Shown here: positions 1,703 through 29,736 of the stretch, in pieces
Position numbering within the stretch: position 1 is the first letter of the stretch
Layout of the letters: every line of letters starts with the position of its first letter
Source: Methylobacterium sp. J-088
Lineage (GTDB): Bacteria; Pseudomonadota; Alphaproteobacteria; Rhizobiales; Beijerinckiaceae
Reading direction: 5' to 3'
DNA length: 64,000 nt
Assembly: GCF_022829295.1 (NCBI RefSeq)
Contig: NZ_JAKSYH010000171.1
Location: 1-64,000, forward strand
Made by a program: the position numbers and the translations under genes
The notes under the pieces: generated by a model
Databases searched by the model: none
Seen by the model: the letters and a program-made list of their open reading frames with translations, nothing else
Told to the model about the DNA's origin: nothing

Positions 1703-2434
1703 TCACGCCGCCGTCGCGTCGAGGCCGGCGCTGCGCCAGCGGTCGAGCTCCCGGTCGATCGCCGCCTCGGTACAGCGCAGGAACTCGGCGGCCGGCAGGC
1801 CCGGGGCGACGGCGGCGAGGTAGCTGACCACGACGGTCCCGGCCCGGGTGGCCATCCCCCCCGGCCAGAACAGCCCGGAATTCACCGCCACCGGCACCAC
1901 CGGTAGGCCGAGCCGCCCGTAGAGCAGTTCGACCCCGCGCTTGAAGCGCAGTGGCGCGGCAATGCCGCCGCGGGTGCCCTCCGGGAAGATCAGAACCGAC
2001 CGGCCGGCCGCCACGGCGGCACGCCCCTCGTCGATCATGGTGCGCAGGGCCTGGGTGCCATTGCCGCGGTCGATGATGATCATCGGCGAGCGCCGCAGGA
2101 ACCAGCCGACCACCGGGATCGACAGCAGCTCCCGCTTGGCGACGATCGCCACATCCGGCACCAGAACCAGGAAGGCCAGCGTCTCCCAGGTCGATTGGTG
2201 GTTGGCTACGATCAGGCAGGGCTCGGCCGGCAGGTGCTGGCGGCCCTCCTCGACGTAGCGCAGGCCGACGATACCCCGCAGTCCAGCCAGGATCCCGCGC
2301 GCCCAAAGCCGCGTCGCCCGGCGGATCGGCCGCTGTGGCGAGCCGGACAGGAGGAAGATCACCAGGGGGACGAGGAACAGAGTCGTCCAGGCCGCCCAGT
2401 AGACGGCGAACAGGAACGAGCGGGCATGGGCCAT
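1703..2434 (-). CDS. plsC: 1-acyl-sn-glycerol-3-phosphate acyltransferase (PlsC family)
   Basis: Membrane-bound acyltransferase expected to add the second acyl chain to lysophosphatidic acid in phospholipid synthesis. The start at 2434 places one hydrophobic segment (SFLFAVYWAAWTTLFLVPLV) at the N-terminus. The acyltransferase boxes are present: NHQSTWE, the His-X4-acid motif with Glu instead of the more common Asp; then FLRRSPMIIIDR; and LIFPEGTRGG, which binds the phosphate. The length of 243 residues is normal. The gene converges on lolA, leaving 9 bases between the stops, and is divergent from xthA. The Glu variant occurs in several alphaproteobacterial members, so it is not treated as a defect. 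The exact acyl donor and position specificity cannot be read from sequence. Confidence 0.88.
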   Translation of the reverse strand: MAHARSFLFAVYWAAWTTLFLVPLVIFLLSGSPQRPIRRATRLWARGILAGLRGIVGLRYVEEGRQHLPAEPCLIVANHQSTWETLAFLVLVPDVAIVAKRELLSIPVVGWFLRRSPMIIIDRGNGTQALRTMIDEGRAAVAAGRSVLIFPEGTRGGIAAPLRFKRGVELLYGRLGLPVVPVAVNSGLFWPGGMATRAGTVVVSYLAAVAPGLPAAEFLRCTEAAIDRELDRWRSAGLDATAA

Positions 2435-2588
2435 GGCTGGGCTTCGACGCGGGGACAGGGCAGCGCCCGGGCATAGCGCGTGCCTGCCGGACACGCACGG
2501 CCTTTTGCCTCATCGACTGCGAGCGGACTGTCGCGGACCGCGAAATCCGCTATCGGAGCATAGCCCCGTCCGAACCCAGACCCTGCCC

Positions 2589-3398
2589 GTGCAACTCACC
2601 GTCACCACCTGGAACATCAATTCGGTGCGCTTGCGCATCGATCTCGTGCTGCGCTTCCTGGCCGAGCATAGGCCGGACGTGCTCTGCCTTCAGGAGACGA
2701 AGTGTCCGGACGATGCCTTCCCGCTGAAGGCCCTGCGCGGCTCCGGCTACGAGCACGTGATGTTCGCCGGCCAGAAGGGCTATAACGGCGTCGCGATCCT
2801 CTCGCGCTTTCCCCTGCACACCCGCGCCGTGATGGGCTTCTGCGAGCGTCAGGATGCCCGCCACATCTCGGCGGTGCTGGGACCGGAGGCAGGCGCCGCC
2901 GCGGGCATCGTGCTGCACGATTTCTACGTTCCAGCCGGCGGCGACACGCCGGACCGCGACCTCAATCCGAAATTCGCCCACAAGCTCGACTTCCTCGCCG
3001 AGTTGCGCGCCTGGGGCGGTAAGCGCGTCTCAGGGCCGGTGATCCTGATGGGCGACCTCAACGTCGCGCCGCTGGAGCACGATGTCTGGTCGCATAAGCA
3101 ACTTCTCGACGTGGTGAGCCACACGCCCGTGGAGACCGAGGCGTTGGAGATCCTGCGTGGCGAGGCCGGCTGGATCGACACGGCGCGCCACCTCACTCCG
3201 GAGCCCGAGAAGATCTACACGTGGTGGAGCTACCGCTCCCCCGATTGGGCGGCCGCCAACAAGGGTCGGCGCCTTGATCACCTCTGGGTCTCCCCCGATC
3301 TCGCCGGTACGGTCCGCAAGGTCGAGGTGCTGCGCGACGCAAGGGGCTGGGAGCGACCCTCCGACCACGCGCCGGTCACATTGACGCTGGACCTCTGA
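2589..3398 (+). CDS. xthA: Exodeoxyribonuclease III
   Basis: AP endonuclease/3'-5' exonuclease of base-excision repair. The endonuclease/exonuclease/phosphatase fold is clear: TTWNINSVRLR at the N-terminus, CLQETKCPDDAFP with the metal-binding Glu, GYNGVAILSR, ILMGDLNVAP with the Asp-Asn pair, and the C-terminal GRRLDHLWVSPDL and PSDHAPVTLTLDL with the catalytic Asp-His. The start chosen is GTG 2589, which gives 269 residues, close to the family norm of about 268. No strong ribosome binding site is visible. An ATG further upstream at 2433 would overlap the divergent plsC start and add an unrelated N-terminus. Confidence 0.93.
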   Translation: MQLTVTTWNINSVRLRIDLVLRFLAEHRPDVLCLQETKCPDDAFPLKALRGSGYEHVMFAGQKGYNGVAILSRFPLHTRAVMGFCERQDARHISAVLGPEAGAAAGIVLHDFYVPAGGDTPDRDLNPKFAHKLDFLAELRAWGGKRVSGPVILMGDLNVAPLEHDVWSHKQLLDVVSHTPVETEALEILRGEAGWIDTARHLTPEPEKIYTWWSYRSPDWAAANKGRRLDHLWVSPDLAGTVRKVEVLRDARGWERPSDHAPVTLTLDL

Positions 3399-3472
3399 TC
3401 CCCGGCACCGGGCGGAACCGCGCTTCTTCCGGGGCATTGCCCGCTCACGAGCCCGTGACGTGAGGTGACCCG

Positions 3473-3571
3473 ATGCGCAAGATCCTGATCGCCTTCCTCC
3501 TTCCCCGAGTCGTTTCGTTTCTCCGCAATCGCTACGGCAAGCCGCACGCGAACCGCAGCCGGGCGTTCTAA
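3473..3571 (+). CDS. Short ORF, 32 residues, hypothetical
   Basis: An ATG at 3473 is preceded by a GAGGTG-type ribosome binding site at 3462-3467 and opens 32 codons ending in TAA. The peptide starts MRKILIAFLLPRVVSFLRNR: a short hydrophobic stretch followed by a basic tail rich in Arg and Asn. It could be a small membrane-associated peptide. It lies in the 275-base space between xthA and the SDR gene. No family is recognised. Support comes only from the good start context and the sensible composition, so it may be non-coding. Confidence 0.4.
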   Translation: MRKILIAFLLPRVVSFLRNRYGKPHANRSRAF

Positions 3572-3673
3572 GCCGGCAAATGACCTGCGCGCGGCTGTGA
3601 CGGCCGGGCGCAGGCGGTTCGATCGGCCGCGGCCCTAAATCCGGCGGGACCTATCCGCCCAGGAACCGTACCG

Positions 3674-4552
3674 ATGACCCAAGATCCCCGCGAGGCTGGC
3701 CCACGTCCGCCCTATCCCGGCGACCAGCAACAGACCCGTCCGGGGCTGACCACGAAGATGACGCCGCGCCCCGACCATGGCGAGGAGAGCTACGTCGGCA
3801 AAGGCCTGCTCGTCGGTCAGGCCGCGCTGATCACCGGCGGCGATTCCGGCATCGGCCGGGCCGTCGCCATCGCGTATGCCCGCGAGGGCGCGGACGTCGC
3901 GATCTCCTATCTTGATGTCGAGCAGGACGACGCCGAGGACACGAAGGCCTGGGTCGAGAGGGCCGGCCGCCGCTGCCTGCTGCTACCCGGCGACATCCGT
4001 GACGAGGCTCATTGCCGAAGCCTCGTGGCGCGCACCGTGGAGGCGTTCGGCCGCCTCGACATCCTGGTGAACAATGCCGCCGCCCAGGTGGTGAATGCGG
4101 ACCTCGACGATCTGAAAGCCCCCGACATCGAAGGCTCATTCCGGGCCAACGTGTTCGCGATGTACTACCTGACCCAGGCGGCGGTGCCCCACATGAAGCC
4201 CGGCGCCGCCATCGTGAACAGCACGAGCGTGCAGGCCAAGGTCGCCGATCCCAGCATGCTGATCTACGCGGCCACCAAGGGCGCGATCGCGAGCCTGACG
4301 ATCGGCCTGTCGAACCTGCTCGCGCCGCAGGGCATTCGGGTCAACTGCGTCGCGCCCGGGCCGGTCTGGACGCCGATCCAGCCGATCGTGAAGGATCCCG
4401 AGCAGATCGCGCAGCTCGGCGCGCAGACGCCGCTCGGCCGCGCAGGCCAACCCGCCGAGCTGGCCCCGGCCTACGTGCTGCTTGCCTCCCGAGAGGGCAG
4501 CTACATGTCAGGCGCCTTGGTGCCGGTGACCGGCGGCATGCCGATGCTCTGA
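3674..4552 (+). CDS. SDR family oxidoreductase, general-stress type
   Basis: NAD(P)-dependent short-chain dehydrogenase of 292 residues, similar in layout to the Bacillus general-stress SDRs (YdaD/YhdF type). These have a 40-residue N-terminal extension ending in a PRPDHGEESYVGKG-like segment before the Rossmann fold. Visible motifs are TGGDSGIGRA for cofactor binding, LVNNAAAQ, and the catalytic Ser (NSTSVQ) with YAATKGA supplying Tyr and Lys. The C-terminal CVAPGPVWTPIQP and GALVPVTGGMPML are typical. The gene stands alone. A role in osmotic or oxidative stress is known for some relatives, but the substrate here is unknown. Confidence 0.85.
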   Translation: MTQDPREAGPRPPYPGDQQQTRPGLTTKMTPRPDHGEESYVGKGLLVGQAALITGGDSGIGRAVAIAYAREGADVAISYLDVEQDDAEDTKAWVERAGRRCLLLPGDIRDEAHCRSLVARTVEAFGRLDILVNNAAAQVVNADLDDLKAPDIEGSFRANVFAMYYLTQAAVPHMKPGAAIVNSTSVQAKVADPSMLIYAATKGAIASLTIGLSNLLAPQGIRVNCVAPGPVWTPIQPIVKDPEQIAQLGAQTPLGRAGQPAELAPAYVLLASREGSYMSGALVPVTGGMPML

Positions 4553-4892
4553 GCACTGGGTGGTGCGCAGGCCGGACAGCCCGGAGCCGCGCCGGACTCT
4601 CGGTGGGCTGAAGCCTGGCCGATGCGCCCGCGATCGGGCGGACTACGCCAGGCAAACCTGTGCTTGCGTGAAGTAAGATCCGAGCCGATGGCGCCAAGCG
4701 GCGTCATCCGCGCGGATCGCGCGCTGTCGACTGGGCGTATACCGGTTCGGTCATGTGCGCACGCGGCCAACCCAGCAAATCGGTATTCAATACAGCTATA
4801 AGTAATTTCCAATACACGAAATTAACCACTTTTGGAAGGTAAAAGCAACCGAAGATTGCATATCCGGTTATTGGCGAAAATCGGAGGTGCTC
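4553..4892. other. Intergenic upstream region of the secretion operon
   Basis: This 340-base stretch holds no convincing gene. Its right half (about 4780-4860) is much richer in A and T than the surrounding sequence, with TATAAG at 4797-4802 resembling a -10 element, though no matching -35 was found. It is therefore the likely promoter region of the type I secretion operon. GGAGG at 4883-4887 is the ribosome binding site of the following gene. Confidence 0.5.
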
Positions 4893-7061
4893 ATGTCGTC
4901 ATCCCCACTCGCAATCCTCAGCCCGACCACGCGCTCGCTCGAATGGCTCGTCGGCCCAGGCGCGTTGCTCTCGTCCACCGCGCTCTCGACCGGCCAGCTT
5001 GCGAGCCTCGGCCCGATCGCCTCGCAGATCGAGGGGGCGCTCAGCGCCGGCACGGGAAGCGAGGGCGGCTCGCTTCTTCCCGACACGCTGGCCGAGGCCG
5101 CCAATACCATCGTCCTCGATACGCATGCTCAGCTCGAGACGGTCGGCCACAACGTCGCGCCGCTGAACGGACCGCTGCACGGCCTCACCAATCTCGGCGA
5201 GACGATCGGCCTGGGTCATATCGGCGAGGCCGGCAACCTGATCACCGATCTGTCGGGCGCCGTTGCGAATCCGGCCGGTCTCGATACGGCCGCGCCGCTC
5301 CTGGCCGATGCCAGCCATGTCACCGATGCAGCCAATGCGCTGGTGGACTTGGTGGCGGCGGTGCCGAGCGCCGGCAACGGTCTCGTCGGCTCCGGCAGCG
5401 TCCTCACGCCGGCGACCGACATCCTCAACCAGACGGTGCTCGATCTCCACACGACGCTCGAAGATGTCGGCCACGCGATCCCACAGCTGAATGGGCCGAT
5501 CCACGGAGTCACAGGCCTCGGTGAGACGGTCGGCCTCGGCCATCTTGGCGAGCCAGGCAATCTCCTGACCGACACCCTCCCGGTCGCCGGGTCGATCCTG
5601 AACGGCGGCGGCCTCGCCTCGGCGAGCCCTGTCCTGTCCGACCTCGGCCATGTGCTGGGCGCAACCGACACGGTGCTCGGCTCCGTCACCGGCGCCGTCA
5701 GTGGCGGCAATCTGCTGGCGTCGGATGGGCTCCTCGCCCCGGTCACGAACCTCGCGAACACGGGCGTCCTCGACCTTCACATGACCCTTGAGAATCTCGG
5801 CCATGAGATTCCCCTGCTCAACGATGCCATCCACGGCCTGACCAACCTCGGCGAGACGGTCGGCCTCGGCTATCTCGGCACGAGCGGAAACCTCGTCACC
5901 GACGTGGTTGGTCTGCCTGGCGACGTGCTGGGTGGCCACGGGCTCGGCGCGGTGTCCCCGATCCTCGGCGATCTCGGCGCGGTGACGCAGTCCGCGGGCG
6001 GCCTTCTCGACGGGGTGACCGGCATCGTCGGCGGCCTCGGCAGCGGTGGGACCGGCATCCCGGCCGTCGGCAGCCTCCTCACCCCGGTGACCGCCACGGT
6101 GGATGGCCTGTTCGCCGATCACGCCGCGGATCCGCTCGCCGGCCTCCTCGGCGGCGTGACCGGCGGGGCGCAGAACGGAACCGGTGCGCTGCTGGGAGTC
6201 GGCGCCCCCCTTCAGCCGGTGGGCGCTGTCACCAACACGCTGATCGATACGGTCCATGCCGGCTTGGAGCAGGTCGGCCACGACGTGCCGGTGCTGAACG
6301 ACCCGCTCCATGCCGTCATCAACCTCGGCAACACGGCGGGCCTTGGCGAGCTCGGCGAGACGAGCAACCTCGTCACCGACGTGGTCAACCTGCCCGGGTC
6401 CGTGCTGGCCGGAAGCAGCGTGCCGGCAGCGGGGCAGATCGTGAGCGACGTCGGTCATATCGCGGATGCGGCCGGCGGGGTCCTGGGCTCGGTGACGGGT
6501 CTCATCCCCGCAGGCGGTGGCGCGGGATCGGGCGCGGTTCTCGACGGCGTCCTGACCCCGGTGACGACGGCTTTGGGCTCGGTCGGGTCCGGGACCACCG
6601 GAAATGCGGCCGGCACCCTGCTCGGCACCCTCACCGGCGGCACGATCGGCGACGGCGGCGCCGGGACGCACCCGCTGGTCGACGTGTCCGCAGGGCCGGC
6701 GACCACAGCACCGGTGGCGGACGCCGCGATCCTCACGCCCTCCGCCGATCCGGCTCACACCGTTCAGGTGAGCGCGGTCGCGGTGGGTGCCGATCAACCG
6801 AGCCTGGCGACGGCGAACCTGCTGAGCGGTGACAGCATCCAGCTGCCGCAGACCAGCGGCGGCGGCGCGGATGCCCTGGTCGGCCAGCTCGCCAGCGTTG
6901 TCTCGGCCACGCATGCGGGCTCGGCCGATGCCGGGGCGTCCCATGGCGCCAGCATCGATCTCGGGATCGTCACGCTCGATCTCGGCGGCCACGCCGATGT
7001 CCAGCACACCGACCCGACCCCGCACACCACCACCAGCGGTCTGCACCTGCTCGGCCTCTGA
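4893..7061 (+). CDS. Repetitive acidic protein, probable type I secretion substrate
   Basis: A 722-residue protein of no recognised family. ATG 4893 sits 5 bases after GGAGG, better than the GTG at 4887. There is no signal peptide. Composition is extreme: no Cys, no Lys, a single Arg (residue 14), and abundant Gly, Ala, Leu, Asp, Thr and His. Four degenerate repeats begin at about residues 74, 182, 292 and 450, each carrying a core like LNGPxHGLTNLGETVGLG followed by LGExGNLxTD. Between them lie segments like VLSDLGHV and LLTPVT. A Gly/Ala-rich tail ends in LHLLGL. RTX nonapeptides are absent. A PrtD/HlyD-type exporter follows immediately. Acidic, Cys-free cargo with a hydrophobic C-terminus suits type I secretion, so an extracellular or surface role such as an adhesin is inferred; no enzymatic domain is seen. 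Confidence 0.75.
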   Translation: MSSSPLAILSPTTRSLEWLVGPGALLSSTALSTGQLASLGPIASQIEGALSAGTGSEGGSLLPDTLAEAANTIVLDTHAQLETVGHNVAPLNGPLHGLTNLGETIGLGHIGEAGNLITDLSGAVANPAGLDTAAPLLADASHVTDAANALVDLVAAVPSAGNGLVGSGSVLTPATDILNQTVLDLHTTLEDVGHAIPQLNGPIHGVTGLGETVGLGHLGEPGNLLTDTLPVAGSILNGGGLASASPVLSDLGHVLGATDTVLGSVTGAVSGGNLLASDGLLAPVTNLANTGVLDLHMTLENLGHEIPLLNDAIHGLTNLGETVGLGYLGTSGNLVTDVVGLPGDVLGGHGLGAVSPILGDLGAVTQSAGGLLDGVTGIVGGLGSGGTGIPAVGSLLTPVTATVDGLFADHAADPLAGLLGGVTGGAQNGTGALLGVGAPLQPVGAVTNTLIDTVHAGLEQVGHDVPVLNDPLHAVINLGNTAGLGELGETSNLVTDVVNLPGSVLAGSSVPAAGQIVSDVGHIADAAGGVLGSVTGLIPAGGGAGSGAVLDGVLTPVTTALGSVGSGTTGNAAGTLLGTLTGGTIGDGGAGTHPLVDVSAGPATTAPVADAAILTPSADPAHTVQVSAVAVGADQPSLATANLLSGDSIQLPQTSGGGADALVGQLASVVSATHAGSADAGASHGASIDLGIVTLDLGGHADVQHTDPTPHTTTSGLHLLGL
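5112..6410 (+). repeat. Four degenerate protein-coding repeats
   Basis: Four copies of a module begin at about 5112, 5436, 5766 and 6240 inside the putative secreted protein, spaced 108, 110 and 158 codons apart. Each has a VLDxHxxLExxGH start, a xPxLNGPxHG core, then NLGETxGLG and LGExGNLxTD. The last copy is the most diverged and is preceded by extra sequence. The DNA copies differ at many positions, so the duplications are old or under selection at the protein level. Confidence 0.8.
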
Positions 7062-7069
7062 GGCCGAGA

Positions 7070-7095
7070 GCCCCCGCCGCAGTCGCGGCGGGGGC
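7070..7095 (+). terminator. Hairpin between secretion substrate and exporter genes
   Basis: A perfect 11-bp GC stem (7070-7080 paired with 7085-7095, loop AGTC) lies 8 bases after the stop of the repetitive protein gene and 46 bases before the exporter start. Only two T residues follow, so it is not a canonical terminator. It may act as a partial terminator or as a 3' mRNA stabiliser, keeping substrate expression above that of the transporter. Confidence 0.65.
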
Positions 7096-7141
7096 CGTTA
7101 TCGCCGTCGCCGCGCCACACCGAGCAACCGGGGAAGTACCT

Positions 7142-8869
7142 GTGACCGACGAGCGCGTGTTGCGTGTTGCGAGGCGTCGCGAGTTCTGGGCCGCCCTCCA
7201 AGCCGGGCGCGCCTGCCTGATCACCGTGATGGTGGTCAGCGGCCTGATCAACCTGCTGATGCTGACCGCGCCGATCTTCATGCTGCAGGTCTACGACCGG
7301 GTGTTGCCGAGCCGGAGCATCGCCACGCTGGTCGGCCTCGCCGGCATCACGCTGATGCTGCTGGTGATCCAGAGCGTCTTCGAGATCTTCCGCGCGCGGA
7401 TCCTGTCGCGGTTCGGACGCCTCATCGACGAGCGCCTCGGCCACCGGATCTTCCGCACGCTGCTGGCCCGCGGCTCCGAGATGCCGCGCAGCGACGAGGG
7501 ACCCCAGGCCCTGCGCGACCTCGATACCGTGCGCGGCTTCGTGTCGAGCATGGCGGTGAGCGCCTTCTTCGACCTGCCCTGGGTGCCGCTCTACGTCGCG
7601 GTCTGCTTCCTGTTCCATCCCTGGCTCGGGGCGGCAATCGCCGGGGGCGCCCTGTTCCTCTGCGTCCTGACGGTCTTGACCGACTGGGCCTCGGCCGCCG
7701 TCACCCAGGAGGCCGTCCGCGTGGCGGGCGAGCGCCGGTCCTTCACCGACATGGCGCACCGGACCGCGCCGCTGCTCTCGGCCCTCGGGATGCGCTCCCG
7801 CATCGCGTCGATCTGGCAGGTCCGGACGCGCCGGAACCTCGACGTGGCGACCCGGGGGAACGACCTCGCCATCGGCTTCGGCACGACGGCACGCCTGCTG
7901 CGCACGCTGCTGCAATCCGGCATCCTCGGCCTCGGGGCGCTGCTGGTCGTGCGTGAGGAGGCGACCGCCGGGGTGATGCTCGCCGCCACGATCCTGTCGG
8001 CCCGGGCGCTGGCGCCGGTCGACCTCGCGATCGCCAACTGGAAATCGTTCACGGCCGCCCGGCAAGCGTGGGGCCGGCTCGTCGCCTTCCTGCCCCTGCG
8101 CGAGCCGACCGCCCCGACGCCCCTGCCGGCCCCGCGCGAGAGCCTGCGCGTGACCGCCCTGTCGATCGCCGTACCGGGCACCGACACGCTCGTTCTGCAC
8201 GACGTGAACGTCGCCCTCGCGCCCGGCAGCGCGCTCGGCGTGATCGGCGCCAGCGGCTCCGGCAAATCGACCTTCGCCCGCGCCCTGGTCGGGCTGGCGC
8301 GGCCGAGCCGCGGCGTGATCCGCCTCGACGGGGCGGCCCTAGACCAGTGGGATCCCGACGATCTCGGCCGCGCGATAGGCTACCTGCCGCAGGATACCGA
8401 GATGTTCGACGGGACGATCGCCGAGAACATCACCCGGTTCGATCCGGCGCCCGATCCCGAGGCCCTGCTGGCCGCCGCCAAGGCTGCGGGCGTCCACGAG
8501 GTCGTGCTCCGGCTACCGGGCGGATACGACGCCCGGGTCGGCGGCGTGGGCGGGCTCGGACTCTCGGGTGGGCAGCGTCAGCGGATCGCCCTCGCGCGGG
8601 CTCTCTTCGGCGATCCTTTTTTGATCGTCCTCGACGAGCCGAACTCCAACCTCGACGTCGATGGCGACCGGGCCCTGTCGGCGGCCGTCCAGGGTGTGCG
8701 CGCCCGCGGCGGCATCGTGGTGGTGATCGCCCACCGGCCCAGCGCCCTGGCCGCGGTCGACCGGATCCTGGTGCTCGGCGATGGGCGCGTGCAGCTGCAC
8801 GGGCCGCGCGACGAGGTCCTGGCGAAGCTCGGCGCCCTGACCCGGCAGACACCCACGAGGGTCGCATGA
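7142..8869 (+). CDS. prtD: Type I secretion system permease/ATPase, PrtD family
   Basis: Inner-membrane ABC exporter of 575 residues that would energise one-step export through a type I channel. The N-terminal half carries about six membrane segments, beginning with LITVMVVSGLINLLMLTAPI and the family motif FMLQVYDRVLPSRS. No C39 peptidase or peptidase-like domain precedes it, which is typical of the PrtD/AprD class. The ATPase half shows Walker A GASGSGKST near residue 369, the signature LSGGQRQRIALARAL near 473 and Walker B FLIVLDEPNSNLD near 494. The start is GTG 7142 after a GGGGAAG box. The next gene overlaps by four bases. No TolC-like outer-membrane partner is in the operon, so one encoded elsewhere is presumably used. 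Confidence 0.9.
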   Translation: MTDERVLRVARRREFWAALQAGRACLITVMVVSGLINLLMLTAPIFMLQVYDRVLPSRSIATLVGLAGITLMLLVIQSVFEIFRARILSRFGRLIDERLGHRIFRTLLARGSEMPRSDEGPQALRDLDTVRGFVSSMAVSAFFDLPWVPLYVAVCFLFHPWLGAAIAGGALFLCVLTVLTDWASAAVTQEAVRVAGERRSFTDMAHRTAPLLSALGMRSRIASIWQVRTRRNLDVATRGNDLAIGFGTTARLLRTLLQSGILGLGALLVVREEATAGVMLAATILSARALAPVDLAIANWKSFTAARQAWGRLVAFLPLREPTAPTPLPAPRESLRVTALSIAVPGTDTLVLHDVNVALAPGSALGVIGASGSGKSTFARALVGLARPSRGVIRLDGAALDQWDPDDLGRAIGYLPQDTEMFDGTIAENITRFDPAPDPEALLAAAKAAGVHEVVLRLPGGYDARVGGVGGLGLSGGQRQRIALARALFGDPFLIVLDEPNSNLDVDGDRALSAAVQGVRARGGIVVVIAHRPSALAAVDRILVLGDGRVQLHGPRDEVLAKLGALTRQTPTRVA

Positions 8870-25042: not shown

Positions 25043-26440
25043 ATGATGGGCGAGCTGGTGTGCGACGTCGCGGTGATCGGCGCCGGAACAGCCGGGCTTG
25101 CCGCCTATCGCGCCGCCACCGAAGCCGGCGCCCACGCCGTCCTGATCGAGCGCGGCCCCGGCGGCACGACCTGCGCGCGGGTCGGTTGCATGCCCTCCAA
25201 ACTGCTGATCGCCGCCGCGACTGCCGCCCATGCGGCGCGCAACACCGATCTGTTCGGAATTCGTGTGCGGGAGGTCGCCGTGGACGGACCCGCCGTGCTG
25301 GCGCGCCTCCGCGCCGAGCGCGACCGCTTCGTCGGCAGCGTCCTCGAGGGCCAGGACGACTTGCCGGAAGACGCGCGCATTCGCGGCAGCGCCCGCTTCG
25401 TGGACGCCCGGACGCTCGCAGTCGGAGAGGGCCTGCGGATCCGGTTCCGGGCCGCCATCATCGCCACGGGATCGAGCCCGATCGTGCCGGGGCCCCTGCG
25501 CGGCCTCGGCGATCGCCTCCTCACCACCGATACCTTGTTCGAGATGCCCGATCTGCCGGACTCGCTGGCCATCCTGGGGGCCGGCGCGGTCGGGATCGAG
25601 ATCGCTCAGGCGATGGCCCGGCTCGGTGTCGCCGTCACGGTGATCGACGCGGGCGATACCATCGCGGGTCTGAGCGAGCTGCATCTCACCCGCCAAGCGG
25701 CCGGGATCTTCGGCGCCGAGATGAACCTGAATCTCGGCGCCACGCTGGTGAGCGCGGAGCCAGAGGGCGACGGGGTCCGCCTCGACTGGATCGATCGCCA
25801 GGGATACGGGCAGGTGACGCGGGCCGCGATGGTGCTGGCCGCCACCGGCCGCGCGCCGAACCTGGACGATCTCGATCTCCCCGCGGCTGGCCTGCGCCTC
25901 GGCGCGGACGGCGTCCCGAACTTTGACCATAGCACCCAGGTCTGCACCGGAGCGCCGATCCTGATCGCAGGTGATGCCGATGCCTGGCGGCCGGTGCTCC
26001 ACGAGGCGAGCCGCCAGGGCAGGATCGCCGGCACCAACGCCGCGGCCCTGGCGGCCGGGCGGCCGGTCCAGGCGGTGGCGCCCTGGACGCGCCTCGCCAT
26101 GGTGTTCACCCATCCGCAGGCCGCCGCCATCGGTGCCCCCTACGATCCGGGTGCTGACAACTGCGTGATCGGCGCGATGGATTTCTCCGATCAGGGCCGC
26201 GCCCGCGTTGAAGGACACAACCAGGGCGGCCTCCGGTTCTGGGCCGATCGGGACGGACGATTGCTCGGTGGCGAGATGCTTGGCCCCGCCGTGGAGCACC
26301 TCGCCCACCTTCTCACTTACGCGGTCGCGGACGGGCTCACGGCCCGGGATGTGATCGAGCGGCCGATCTACCATCCCACAGTTGAAGAAGCACTGACGAC
26401 CGCTCTGACCGACATGACACGAACGAAAAACCAGTGTTGA
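25043..26440 (+). CDS. Dihydrolipoyl dehydrogenase-like pyridine nucleotide-disulfide oxidoreductase
   Basis: FAD-dependent oxidoreductase of 465 residues. FAD binding is seen in VAVIGAGTAGLAAYRAAT, the redox disulfide in TCARVGCMPSK, and NAD binding in SLAILGAGAVGIEIAQAMARL. AAMVLAATGRAPNLD is the second FAD contact and GDADAWRPVLHEASRQGRIAG the late one. The dimer domain ends with the His-Glu active-site pair in HPTVEEALTTAL. It lacks neighbouring 2-oxoacid dehydrogenase subunits, so it is probably not the lipoamide dehydrogenase of a main complex. A mercuric-reductase-like or soluble reductase role remains possible. It ends in TKNQC, without a C-terminal Cys pair. Confidence 0.85.
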   Translation: MMGELVCDVAVIGAGTAGLAAYRAATEAGAHAVLIERGPGGTTCARVGCMPSKLLIAAATAAHAARNTDLFGIRVREVAVDGPAVLARLRAERDRFVGSVLEGQDDLPEDARIRGSARFVDARTLAVGEGLRIRFRAAIIATGSSPIVPGPLRGLGDRLLTTDTLFEMPDLPDSLAILGAGAVGIEIAQAMARLGVAVTVIDAGDTIAGLSELHLTRQAAGIFGAEMNLNLGATLVSAEPEGDGVRLDWIDRQGYGQVTRAAMVLAATGRAPNLDDLDLPAAGLRLGADGVPNFDHSTQVCTGAPILIAGDADAWRPVLHEASRQGRIAGTNAAALAAGRPVQAVAPWTRLAMVFTHPQAAAIGAPYDPGADNCVIGAMDFSDQGRARVEGHNQGGLRFWADRDGRLLGGEMLGPAVEHLAHLLTYAVADGLTARDVIERPIYHPTVEEALTTALTDMTRTKNQC

Positions 26441-26515: not shown

Positions 26516-29131
26516 ATGCCGCCGAGTCCGGCCGACGACAGCACGATTGACCTCGATGTGCTCGCGCCCGACGCGATCGACCGCCTGGATCAGGGGGTGA
26601 TCGGTCTGGACGCCGCCGGCGCGGTTGTGGCCTTCAGCGAGGGCGCGAGTGTGCTTTCGGGCTTCGCGCGCGAGGCCGTGCTCGGACGCGACTACTTTCG
26701 CGACGTGATGCCCGGGGCCAACGTCCCGAATTTCCGGGGGCGCTTCCTCGCTGGCGCACGCCGCGGCGCCCTGGACGAGCGCTTCGACTACGTGTTCGGC
26801 CGGGTGCCGCAGCCGCTGCGGGCCCGGATCCACATGCGCCACGGGATTATGGCGGGCGGTCCGCCGGTGACATGGCTGACGATCGATCCGATCGAGAGCT
26901 TGGGGGCCGGCCAGTCCCGGGAAGCCGTCCTGGCGGCGATCGGGCGTCGGGTCCGGGCCGAGCCGGTGGATGCCAGCCTGTGCGAGCGCGAGCCGATCCA
27001 TATCCCGGGCTCGATCCAGCCCAACGCCGTGATGCTGGCGGCCGATGTCAGCACGCTGATCGTGCTCGCCTACTCGGCCAACATCGATGAGATCGTCGAT
27101 CCGATCGTTCTGCCCCTGGCGGGGCGCCCCCTCGGGGAGATCCTGCCCGCACCCTTCGTCGAGACCGTCCGGCGTCGGCTGGCGGACCAGACACTCGATG
27201 ACGGCCGCTCGGTCCGCGCCCGGCTCCCCCTGCCGGGCCGCGACGCGACCTATTATGCGGTCGCCCACGCCCATGCCGGACGCGTGATCGTCGAGCTGGA
27301 GCTGGAGCCGGACTCGGCCGCCGATTTCGCCACCGCCAGCCAAGTCGATACGGAACTCGCCGTCGGACGCCTGCGCACGGCCGAGACCCTGACGGATGCC
27401 GCCCGGATCGCCGCCCTGGAGATCCGGGCGCTCACCGGCTTCGAGGCGGTGCTGGTCTATCGGTTCGACGTGGATTGGAACGGCGAGGCGGTGGCCGAGG
27501 ACAAGACGCGCGACTGGTCGCGCAGCCTGCTCGGCCTGCGCTTCCCCGCCTCCGACATCCCCGCCCAGGCCCGCGCACTCTACACCAAGGCCAAGAGCCG
27601 CTTCGTGATCGACCGCGACAGCGTGCCGGTGGGGCTTGTCTCGGCCGCGGGCGCCGGCAATGGCCCGATCGACCTGACCTTCGCCCAGCACCGGACGCTG
27701 TCGCCGATCCACTTGGAGTATCAGCGCAACCTCGGCGTGAACGGCTCCATGTCGATCTCCATCATGGTCGACGACCGGCTCTGGGGCCTGATGATCGGGC
27801 ATCATCGCCGCCCGCACTACGTCACGCCAGAGACCCGCTCGGCCGCCACCGTGCTGACCGATGCCTTTGCTATGCGGGTGCAGGAGATCGAGTCGCGCCG
27901 CCTCTGGGCCGAGCGGCAGGCGCATCTCGATGTCGAGGGCCGCCTTGTGCGCCGCTTGACCCGCTCCGACGACTTCGTGAGCGCCCTGACCGATGGTGGG
28001 ACTACGCTGCTCGATCTGTTCAGCGCCACGGGCGCCGGCATCGTCTCGGGCGGGCGGGTCACGCTGATCGGCCGCACGCCCCCGGCGGATCGGGTCACGG
28101 CGATCGCGGACTGGCTGCAGACACAGGTGCCGGCGGGCGAGTTCAGCTACAGCAGCAGCAGCTTCACCGCCGACTATCCGGACGCGGCGCCGCATCGGGA
28201 GATCGCCAGCGGGCTGCTCGCGAGCTTCGTGGATCAGTCGCGCGAGAACCTGCTCCTCTGGTTCCGCCCCGAGGTGCCCAGCACGGTCACCTGGGGCGGC
28301 GATCCGCGCAAGCCGGTACTGGCCGGCAGCGGTCCGGTGGCGGTGCTGCCGCGGCGCTCGTTCGAGCGCTGGGTCGAGGAGCGGACCGGCTTCGCGGCCC
28401 CCTGGGCTGAGTGGCAGATCCAGCTCGCCGGATCCCTCGCGGAGGCGGTGGAGGGCGTGGTTCTGCGCCAGCGCCGCAAGATCGACGAGCTGACCGGCCT
28501 GCTCGCCGAGAAGGAGCGGCTACTGGAGCAGAAGGATCTGCTCACCCGGGAGATCGACCACCGGGTCAAGAACTCCCTGCAGATCGTCTCGGCCTTCCTG
28601 CAGATGCAGCGTCGCCAGATCTCCGATGGTGAGGCCCGTCAAGCCTTCGCCGACACCTCGGCCCGGGTGATGAGCGTCGCCCGGGTGCACGATAGCCTGT
28701 ACCAAGCCGAGCGCGTGGACGAGGTCGATCTCGGCCAGACCCTCGAGAGCCTGTGCAACGACCTCGCGGAACTCGCGGGCGAGGGCCATGCGGTCGATCT
28801 CACCGCCGAGCCGGGCCTGATGGTGCCCTACCGCAAGGCGGTGGCGCTCTCGCTCATCGCCACGGAACTCGTGACCAATGCCTTCAAGTACGCGGCGAAG
28901 CCAGCCGGCGGCGGTCGCGTCGAGGTCAGCGTCTCGGCCTCCGGCCCCGGCGAGGTGCGGCTGCGCGTCTGCGATGATGGCGCCGGCCTGCCCGATGACT
29001 GGACCAACGCCAAGGCCCGCGGCAAGGGTTCAGGGCTCGGCATGAAGCTGATCCGGGCTATGCTCGAGCAGATCAACGCCCGGCTCGACGTCGCCAACAA
29101 TCCCGGCGCCTGCTTCACGATCACCGCGTGA
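26516..29131 (+). CDS. Hybrid sensor: PYP-like PAS, bacteriophytochrome and HisKA_2 histidine kinase
   Basis: An 871-residue putative photoreceptor kinase. Residues 20-125 align without gaps to photoactive yellow protein, offset by two (FRDVMP, NFRGRF, DYVFG), but the chromophore Cys69 is Gly67, Tyr42 is Phe40 and Glu46 is Ala44. A complete bacteriophytochrome module follows: bilin-attachment Cys156 in LCEREPIHIPGSIQP, PASDIP with Asp347, His399 in SPIHLEYQRNLGV, and GHH at 428-430; the usual His after IQP is Asn170. A PHY domain spans about 455-640. The kinase has a coiled coil, phospho-acceptor His682 in EIDHRVKNSLQ and an ATPase domain with NAFKYA and DDGAGLPDDW. The next gene, heme oxygenase, overlaps by four bases and would supply biliverdin. 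PYP-phytochrome hybrids (Ppr, Ppd) are known; loss of the PYP cysteine is the odd point. Confidence 0.88.
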   Translation: MPPSPADDSTIDLDVLAPDAIDRLDQGVIGLDAAGAVVAFSEGASVLSGFAREAVLGRDYFRDVMPGANVPNFRGRFLAGARRGALDERFDYVFGRVPQPLRARIHMRHGIMAGGPPVTWLTIDPIESLGAGQSREAVLAAIGRRVRAEPVDASLCEREPIHIPGSIQPNAVMLAADVSTLIVLAYSANIDEIVDPIVLPLAGRPLGEILPAPFVETVRRRLADQTLDDGRSVRARLPLPGRDATYYAVAHAHAGRVIVELELEPDSAADFATASQVDTELAVGRLRTAETLTDAARIAALEIRALTGFEAVLVYRFDVDWNGEAVAEDKTRDWSRSLLGLRFPASDIPAQARALYTKAKSRFVIDRDSVPVGLVSAAGAGNGPIDLTFAQHRTLSPIHLEYQRNLGVNGSMSISIMVDDRLWGLMIGHHRRPHYVTPETRSAATVLTDAFAMRVQEIESRRLWAERQAHLDVEGRLVRRLTRSDDFVSALTDGGTTLLDLFSATGAGIVSGGRVTLIGRTPPADRVTAIADWLQTQVPAGEFSYSSSSFTADYPDAAPHREIASGLLASFVDQSRENLLLWFRPEVPSTVTWGGDPRKPVLAGSGPVAVLPRRSFERWVEERTGFAAPWAEWQIQLAGSLAEAVEGVVLRQRRKIDELTGLLAEKERLLEQKDLLTREIDHRVKNSLQIVSAFLQMQRRQISDGEARQAFADTSARVMSVARVHDSLYQAERVDEVDLGQTLESLCNDLAELAGEGHAVDLTAEPGLMVPYRKAVALSLIATELVTNAFKYAAKPAGGGRVEVSVSASGPGEVRLRVCDDGAGLPDDWTNAKARGKGSGLGMKLIRAMLEQINARLDVANNPGACFTITA

Positions 29132-29736
29132 GCCCCGCCAACCCGATCCGGCGCGACGGCCTGCACGCGCGTCTCCGTGCGGCCACCGACCCGGCCCACC
29201 GGGCGTTGGAAGCCGGCCTCGATTGGCAGGCGCGGGTCGCAACGCTTGCGGGCTATCGCGACCTGCTGGCCCGGCTTCACGGCTTCCACGCCACCTGGGA
29301 GCACGCGATCGGCGCGCAGCTCGCCGACGAGCCGTTCCTGGCGCCCCGGCGGCGCCTGGCGCTCCTGGCGGCCGATCTCAACCATCTCGGCCTCCCCCCT
29401 GCGGCGGTCGCGGCGCTGCCACGGCCGAGTTCTGTCCCGCTCCTTAGTCCCGCTGCGGCGACCGGGGCGCTCTACGTGCTGGAGGGCTCGACCTTGGGCG
29501 GCCAGCTGATCGGCCGGCACATCGCGGGCCTGCACGGCCTCAGTGAGAGGGGGCTCACTTATTACCGCGCCCACGGTCCGCGCAACGGGGCGATGTGGTC
29601 CGCTTTCCGGACGCGGCTGGACGCATTCGGCGATGATGCGGAGGCGGAGGCGACGCTGACCGGTGCAGCGGTGGCGACCTTCGCGGCGATGCGGATATGG
29701 CTCTGCGCGCCGCACGGGGTGCCGGCCGCAGGCTGA
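29128..29736 (+). CDS. bphO: Biliverdin-producing heme oxygenase
   Basis: Cleaves heme to biliverdin, the phytochrome chromophore. The 202-residue protein shows a heme-oxygenase layout: LHARLRAATDPAHRALEAGL with the candidate proximal heme His, GYRDLLARLHGFHATWE, and the distal-helix motif LYVLEGSTLGGQLIGRHI. GTG 29128 overlaps the kinase stop (GTGA), so the two are translationally coupled. Placement after rather than before the phytochrome gene differs from the common bphO-bphP order. The ending CAPHGVPAAG is not distinctive. Confidence 0.88.
   Translation: MSPANPIRRDGLHARLRAATDPAHRALEAGLDWQARVATLAGYRDLLARLHGFHATWEHAIGAQLADEPFLAPRRRLALLAADLNHLGLPPAAVAALPRPSSVPLLSPAAATGALYVLEGSTLGGQLIGRHIAGLHGLSERGLTYYRAHGPRNGAMWSAFRTRLDAFGDDAEAEATLTGAAVATFAAMRIWLCAPHGVPAAG

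Follow-up and report, generated by a model that had tools for sequence, protein, structure and literature searches.

A gene on the forward strand of the window (the whole stretch of Methylobacterium sp. J-088 DNA analyzed here, 64,000 nucleotides in length) encodes an 871-residue receptor kinase of the Ppr type (26516..29131, +; open reading frame translation and domain profiles), whose N-terminal domain retains the fold of photoactive yellow protein (PYP) and has lost the residues that contact the chromophore. The reading that we favor, with a probability of roughly 0.6, is that the protein serves as a biliverdin-dependent red/far-red receptor kinase that has kept its PYP fold as a regulatory PAS domain without pigment. 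Methylobacterial Ppr proteins that lack the chromophore cysteine, Cys69 of PYP, were as such already published in 2022 (PMC9664959). What is added here is evidence on how the loss happened, together with evidence against one published explanation.

The PYP-like domain occupies residues 19-111 (26570..26848, +), where a PYP-type PAS fold is recognized by the NCBIfam photo_yellow profile (TIGR02373; E 1.6e-18, which is below the model cut-off), by sequence matches to PDB entries and by a fold model. The PYP domain of Rhodospirillum centenum Ppr (PDB 1mzu) is both the best sequence match and the top Foldseek match for the fold model, and these independent profile, sequence and fold matches rule out a misalignment or a chance resemblance to PYP. 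In the alignment, the position of PYP Tyr42 is taken by Phe40 (26633..26635, +; also confirmed by residue check), that of Glu46 by Ala44 (26645..26647, +), that of Arg52 by Phe50 (26663..26665, +), and that of Cys69 by Gly67 (26714..26716, +; likewise checked). A PYP-like domain devoid of chromophore residues at PYP positions 42, 46 and 69 is what the original prediction described, and this description holds. The domain thus departs from the definition of the PYP family used by Xing et al., which calls for Cys69 carrying thioester-bound p-coumaric acid (PMC9664959), and with Phe40 and Ala44 it also lacks the two side chains, Tyr42 and Glu46, that form hydrogen bonds with the PYP chromophore. 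It contains no cysteine at all, ruling out a substitute elsewhere in the pocket, and Ser48 lies at PYP position 50, so that with Phe40 neither Cys42 nor Cys50 is present. Judging from these residues, sensing of blue light by the PYP domain of this protein is not expected.

Downstream of this domain is a bacteriophytochrome of PAS-GAF-PHY composition, followed by a histidine kinase, which is the Ppr domain order (Pfam, NCBIfam). The PAS_2 domain (residues 156-262; 26981..27301, +; PF08446) begins at the bilin-attachment Cys156, the GAF domain (residues 292-454; 27389..27877, +; PF01590) contains Asp347 and His399, and the PHY domain (residues 473-653; 27932..28474, +; PF00360, E 9.6e-46) carries PRRSF at residues 612-616, matching the PRxSF motif of the PHY tongue. 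The HisKA_2 dimerization and phosphoacceptor domain (residues 679-752; 28550..28771, +; PF07568) bears His682 and is succeeded by an HATPase_c domain (residues 776-870; 28841..29125, +; PF02518). The presence of Cys156, Asp347 and His399 agrees with the earlier claim that the phytochrome half keeps its key residues. These three and His682 are each identical in all 92 aligned Ppr-type proteins, as are all 14 checked phytochrome and kinase residues, whichever pigment class (see below) the protein belongs to. The kinase domain resembles PhyK (NCBIfam, E 1.5e-32, below the model cut-off), which makes a general stress response output a possible lead rather than a result. The closest named relative is a protein of Methylobacterium sp. 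E-065, with 98% identity.

The kinase gene is flanked by two others on the same strand. Upstream, separated by a 75-base gap, is a gene for a dihydrolipoyl dehydrogenase-type flavoenzyme (DLD; 25043..26440, +; NF004939, scoring 530.8 bits where the cut-off is 435), the translation of which contains a CxxxxC.PSK motif; downstream, a heme oxygenase gene (29128..29736, +; PF01126, E 3.7e-12) starts with a GTG that overlaps the kinase stop by 4 bases. This gene order suggests that the three genes form one operon, of which the DLD gene is probably the first. We infer that the heme oxygenase would provide biliverdin, which would attach to Cys156, and that the PHY tongue would relay photoconversion to His682 of the HisKA_2 kinase. 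The chromophore contacts of the PYP fold would have been lost a single time, an ancestor within the genus being the likeliest place, and the fold would have been kept since as a light-insensitive PAS domain that acts on the phytochrome from the N-terminus, setting its basal activity, dimer geometry or dark reversion. Counting against this reading, PYP in R. centenum Ppr depends on its chromophore for its role in sensing light. Recovery of both PYP and bacteriophytochrome in that protein was reportedly treated by Kyndt et al. in 2007.

Two surveys place the window protein among its relatives. A sequence search of genome contigs, which finds close relatives only, returned 51 loci, all from Methylobacteriaceae (Methylobacterium, Methylorubrum and one family-level MAG), and Cys69 is absent from the window protein and from 50 of the 50 relatives that have an N-terminus; one locus without it (L051) is excluded from these counts. 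A PYP profile run against 111 genomes of the genus gave some match in 98, with matches below about 30.5 bits, most of which span only some 45-60 profile positions, excluded as generic PAS domains. After translation of the loci, this search yields 93 Ppr-type proteins in 89 of the 111 genomes. Eighteen of the 93 have Tyr42, Glu46 and Cys69 and are here called pigment-competent, and 75 lack Cys69, the loss for which the original prediction wanted homologues surveyed. No mixed residue set occurs among the 93, and position 46 in the 75 Cys69-less proteins is Ala in 73 and Gly in 2. Of the 75, nine belong to a paralogue group of their own, which has neither a DLD nor a heme oxygenase gene alongside (L190, L206, L208, L211-L216). 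These are more diverged pigment-free Ppr proteins, in which position 42 is Ala, Cys or Gly, position 46 is Ala or Gly and position 69 is Gly, with Asp or Glu in place of the His in the IQPH motif described below. In the other 66 of the 75, here called pigment-free orthologues, as in the 18 pigment-competent proteins, PYP Gly37, Gly59, Phe63, Phe75, Gly77, Phe79 and Phe92 are invariant.

Both types of Ppr appear already to be in print for the methylobacterial group, and the window protein is of the Cys69-substituted type. According to Xing, Gumerov and Zhulin (2022), many Cys69-substituted PYPs are methylobacterial Ppr homologues (PMC9664959), and the window protein shares with these the architecture, the bacterial group, the neighbors (DLD upstream, heme oxygenase downstream) and the loss of Cys69. 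The same source contradicts the earlier statement that a functional PYP is present in the PYP-phytochrome hybrids known so far. Leaf123, the strain used for docking in that report, corresponds to one of our surveyed loci (L034), where the protein is 67% identical to that of the window. The Ppr of R. centenum (Rhodocista centenaria), as described in PMC2993699, has the same order of PYP, bacteriophytochrome and histidine kinase but carries p-hydroxycinnamic acid, whereas the window domain has other residues in place of Cys69, Glu46 and Tyr42. Dohmen et al. (2025) count 37 PYP-phytochrome-kinases among Cys69-containing homologues, and PYP-phytochrome proteins are attributed there primarily to Methylobacteriaceae and Chromatiaceae (PMC12826048). 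The 18 pigment-competent proteins look to be of this kind; the architecture is that of the window protein, but the survey as described covers homologues with Cys69 and so omits the type found in the window.

A tree of 92 proteins, built from the phytochrome and kinase part with the PYP columns removed (a quick search with SH-aLRT support only), requires a single change of the Cys69 state. When rooted on two other phytochromes of the source genome, which are distant and have long branches, the pigment-free proteins come together in a single clade (SH-aLRT 99), and the pigment-competent proteins do not, with weak support (65). We infer the direction and place of the change from this distant root. 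A search for a closer outgroup covered 397 genomes from the order plus 385 from the class; outside the genus, seven translated loci above 50 bits included no PYP-phytochrome, the remaining matches above 50 bits had open frames shorter than 250 residues, and weaker matches were mostly left out. The genus thus holds a natural matched pair, a receptor kinase with and without a pigment-competent PYP domain, in a mostly shared neighborhood and one tree change apart, so that the contribution of PYP to the phytochrome beyond light sensing becomes directly testable. One pigment-competent locus (L131, genome G462, positions 2401-7500) encodes a PYP and a PAS_2 domain, with the phytochrome match ending at query residue 283; its open frame extends to 3724 residues, of which 1700 were examined and gave no further Pfam match. 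It may be truncated, may pass by frameshift into an open frame rich in GC, or may represent a new fusion; the trees, the rate test and the phytochrome counts per residue do not include it.

Among sites that are 90%-conserved within both the pigment-free and the pigment-competent group, those switched between the two amount to 5 of 25 in the PYP domain, 3 of 31 in PAS, 5 of 111 in GAF and 2 of 74 in PHY; for HisKA_2 the figure is 1 of 51, and for HATPase 0 of 43. Outside the PYP domain, the switched sites include the last residue of an IQPH motif in the phytochrome PAS domain (position 170), which is His in 17 of 17 pigment-competent proteins compared and Asn in all 66 pigment-free orthologues (in the window, Asn170 of IQPN; 27023..27025, +; alignment). 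It is possible that this change was coupled to the loss of the PYP residues, as all the switches fall on one branch, and IQPN in place of IQPH could signify an altered phytochrome photochemistry. The motif is not universal, VQAF being present in one of the two other phytochromes of the source genome.

Within the PYP pocket, polar contacts have been exchanged in concert for small or hydrophobic residues, and a tentative alternative, which we consider unlikely, is non-covalent binding of a small molecule in the emptied pocket, by which the protein would sense a ligand as well as light. Position 46 is Ala (65) or Gly (1) and position 69 Gly (33), Ser (29) or Ala (4) in all 66 pigment-free orthologues, while 63 of the 66 have Leu or Phe at position 52, where 18 of 18 pigment-competent proteins have Arg, and the fold is predicted by modeling to be retained. 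The engineered PYP tag FAST, which has the C69G change, binds dyes reversibly (PMC5618792). It shares with the window domain the PYP fold and a Gly at position 69, but it was engineered for dye binding and keeps Tyr42 and Glu46, neither of which appears in the mutation list given in that source. Against a ligand pocket, 9 of the 66 orthologues have a bulky residue (Trp, Phe or Leu) at position 50 that could fill the cavity, and there is no known ligand. More doubtful is an extended form of the same idea, in which the small-sided pocket (positions 46, 69 and 52) and the His170-to-Asn change on the same branch would reflect a conversion to ligand sensing in one episode within the genus, with the kinase integrating red light and a small hydrophobic molecule that might have some connection with the co-encoded DLD.

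A further reading takes the domain for a decaying relic without a present role, and some features are in keeping with this: the chromophore contacts are lost, position 42 is variable (Phe in 41, Cys in 18, Tyr in 6 and Ser in 1 of the 66), and 90%-conserved sites number 31 of 93 in the pigment-free domain versus 51 of 93 in the pigment-competent one, the pigment-free set being larger and more diverse. The pigment-free domain is nevertheless under purifying selection. Its dN/dS is about 0.15 (150 sampled pairs, 88-98.5% identity outside PYP) against 0.20 among pigment-competent proteins (78 pairs), with 0.26 versus 0.32 for the adjacent PAS domain and 0.07 versus 0.08 for GAF, all of these being descriptive figures from a simple pairwise count in which pairs share history and are not independent. 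Part of the low PYP value comes from an elevated dS in that domain (0.57), and raw dN of the pigment-free domain, for sets unmatched in divergence, slightly exceeds that of the pigment-competent one (0.087 versus 0.073). The pigment-free set also has residues specific to it, such as Ala46 (65 of 66) and Arg98 (64 of 66). Moreover, when the 111 genomes were searched with the whole protein (E 1e-150 or better), every complete orthologue found had the PYP domain. Matches occur in 88 genomes, the missing one being G462, and all begin at query residue 1-25 with two exceptions, namely a 498-residue contig-edge fragment in G447, another contig of which carries a full-length copy, and the second piece of a split match in G416. 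Given the purifying selection and the lack of any orthologue that has lost the domain, it is hardly a relic, and we regard that reading as quite improbable. The selection data are compatible with the earlier suggestion that the domain may have become a plain regulatory or partner-binding PAS. No paper on selection acting on the PYP domain of methylobacterial Ppr was found in the open-access PMC literature.

The neighboring DLD gene bears on a published proposal. Some methylobacterial Cys69-substituted PYPs carry Cys42 and Cys50, for which redox sensing through a Cys42-Cys50 disulfide with the neighboring DLD has been proposed, and the Ppr gene is described as always being in an operon with a DLD gene (PMC9664959). 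Both cysteines occur in 16 proteins of the genus, and DLD lies upstream at the window locus as well, but the window domain, with Phe42, Ala46, Ser50 and Gly69 in PYP numbering, differs from those proteins in having no such pair. A DLD match is found upstream in 43 of 45 pigment-free loci without any cysteine in the domain (40 adjacent and full-length, one partial, and two scored as non-adjacent where the kinase frame overruns the DLD end), in 5 of 5 pigment-free loci with one domain cysteine, in 16 of 16 Cys42 and Cys50 loci (two of them partial or displaced), and adjacent in 16 of 18 pigment-competent loci, with 0 of 9 among the paralogues. DLD is also retained at eight pigment-free loci with no visible heme oxygenase, one of which is at a contig end. 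The linkage is therefore independent of the cysteine pair, of the pigment residues and of an adjacent heme oxygenase, and the published link between DLD and the disulfide does not explain the window locus. For a domain with no cysteine the disulfide model is refuted, a verdict that applies to the window protein and does not extend to the 16 proteins with both cysteines, and redox sensing is a very improbable role here. The gene-neighborhood argument for the redox hypothesis is thereby removed for proteins like that of the window. No paper that sets a division of methylobacterial Ppr by pigment residues against DLD linkage was found in the open-access PMC literature.

The heme oxygenase is less constant. 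PYP-phytochromes are stated always to have a heme oxygenase nearby (PMC9664959), but it is absent from 8 of 66 pigment-free loci, with a ninth ending at a contig edge, and, in the loci as fetched, from 4 of 18 pigment-competent and 9 of 9 paralogue loci. In all seven tested of these eight genomes without an adjacent copy (Ppr loci L010, L012, L013, L014, L018, L019 and L020), a different heme oxygenase (PF01126) is encoded elsewhere, with no phytochrome beside it in the roughly 3.5 kb of sequence covered. PF01126 can miss members of the family, since it finds none in the Leaf123 genome, where BLAST detects one beside the Ppr gene.

Continued binding of p-coumaric acid, or of some other pigment, through an alternative route is scarcely credible: the PYP fold and several aromatic residues persist, but Tyr42, Glu46, Arg52 and Cys69 are all replaced, no cysteine remains in the domain, and no aromatic ammonia-lyase was found in the source genome, although the single-domain PYP encoded there retains Cys69. 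A match to the aromatic ammonia-lyase family (PF00221) occurs in 18 of 18 pigment-competent genomes versus 5 of 66 pigment-free ones. The top-scoring enzyme in each of the 18 has a Ser-His pair, which we take to be typical of histidine ammonia-lyase, with a second match in 4 of the 18 genomes falling outside this assignment. Because of this pair, and because the genomes track one group, the PF00221 pattern is no evidence of p-coumaric acid synthesis. Single-domain PYPs of the genus have Tyr42, Glu46 and Cys69 in 10 of 10 cases examined (an 11th match, G467, is left out), so that the loss is specific to Ppr. One of the ten is the single-domain PYP of the source genome itself (L002/L055; contig C42, 10883-11197), the gene for which is flanked by an apparent EAL gene and an apparent PAS-GGDEF gene.
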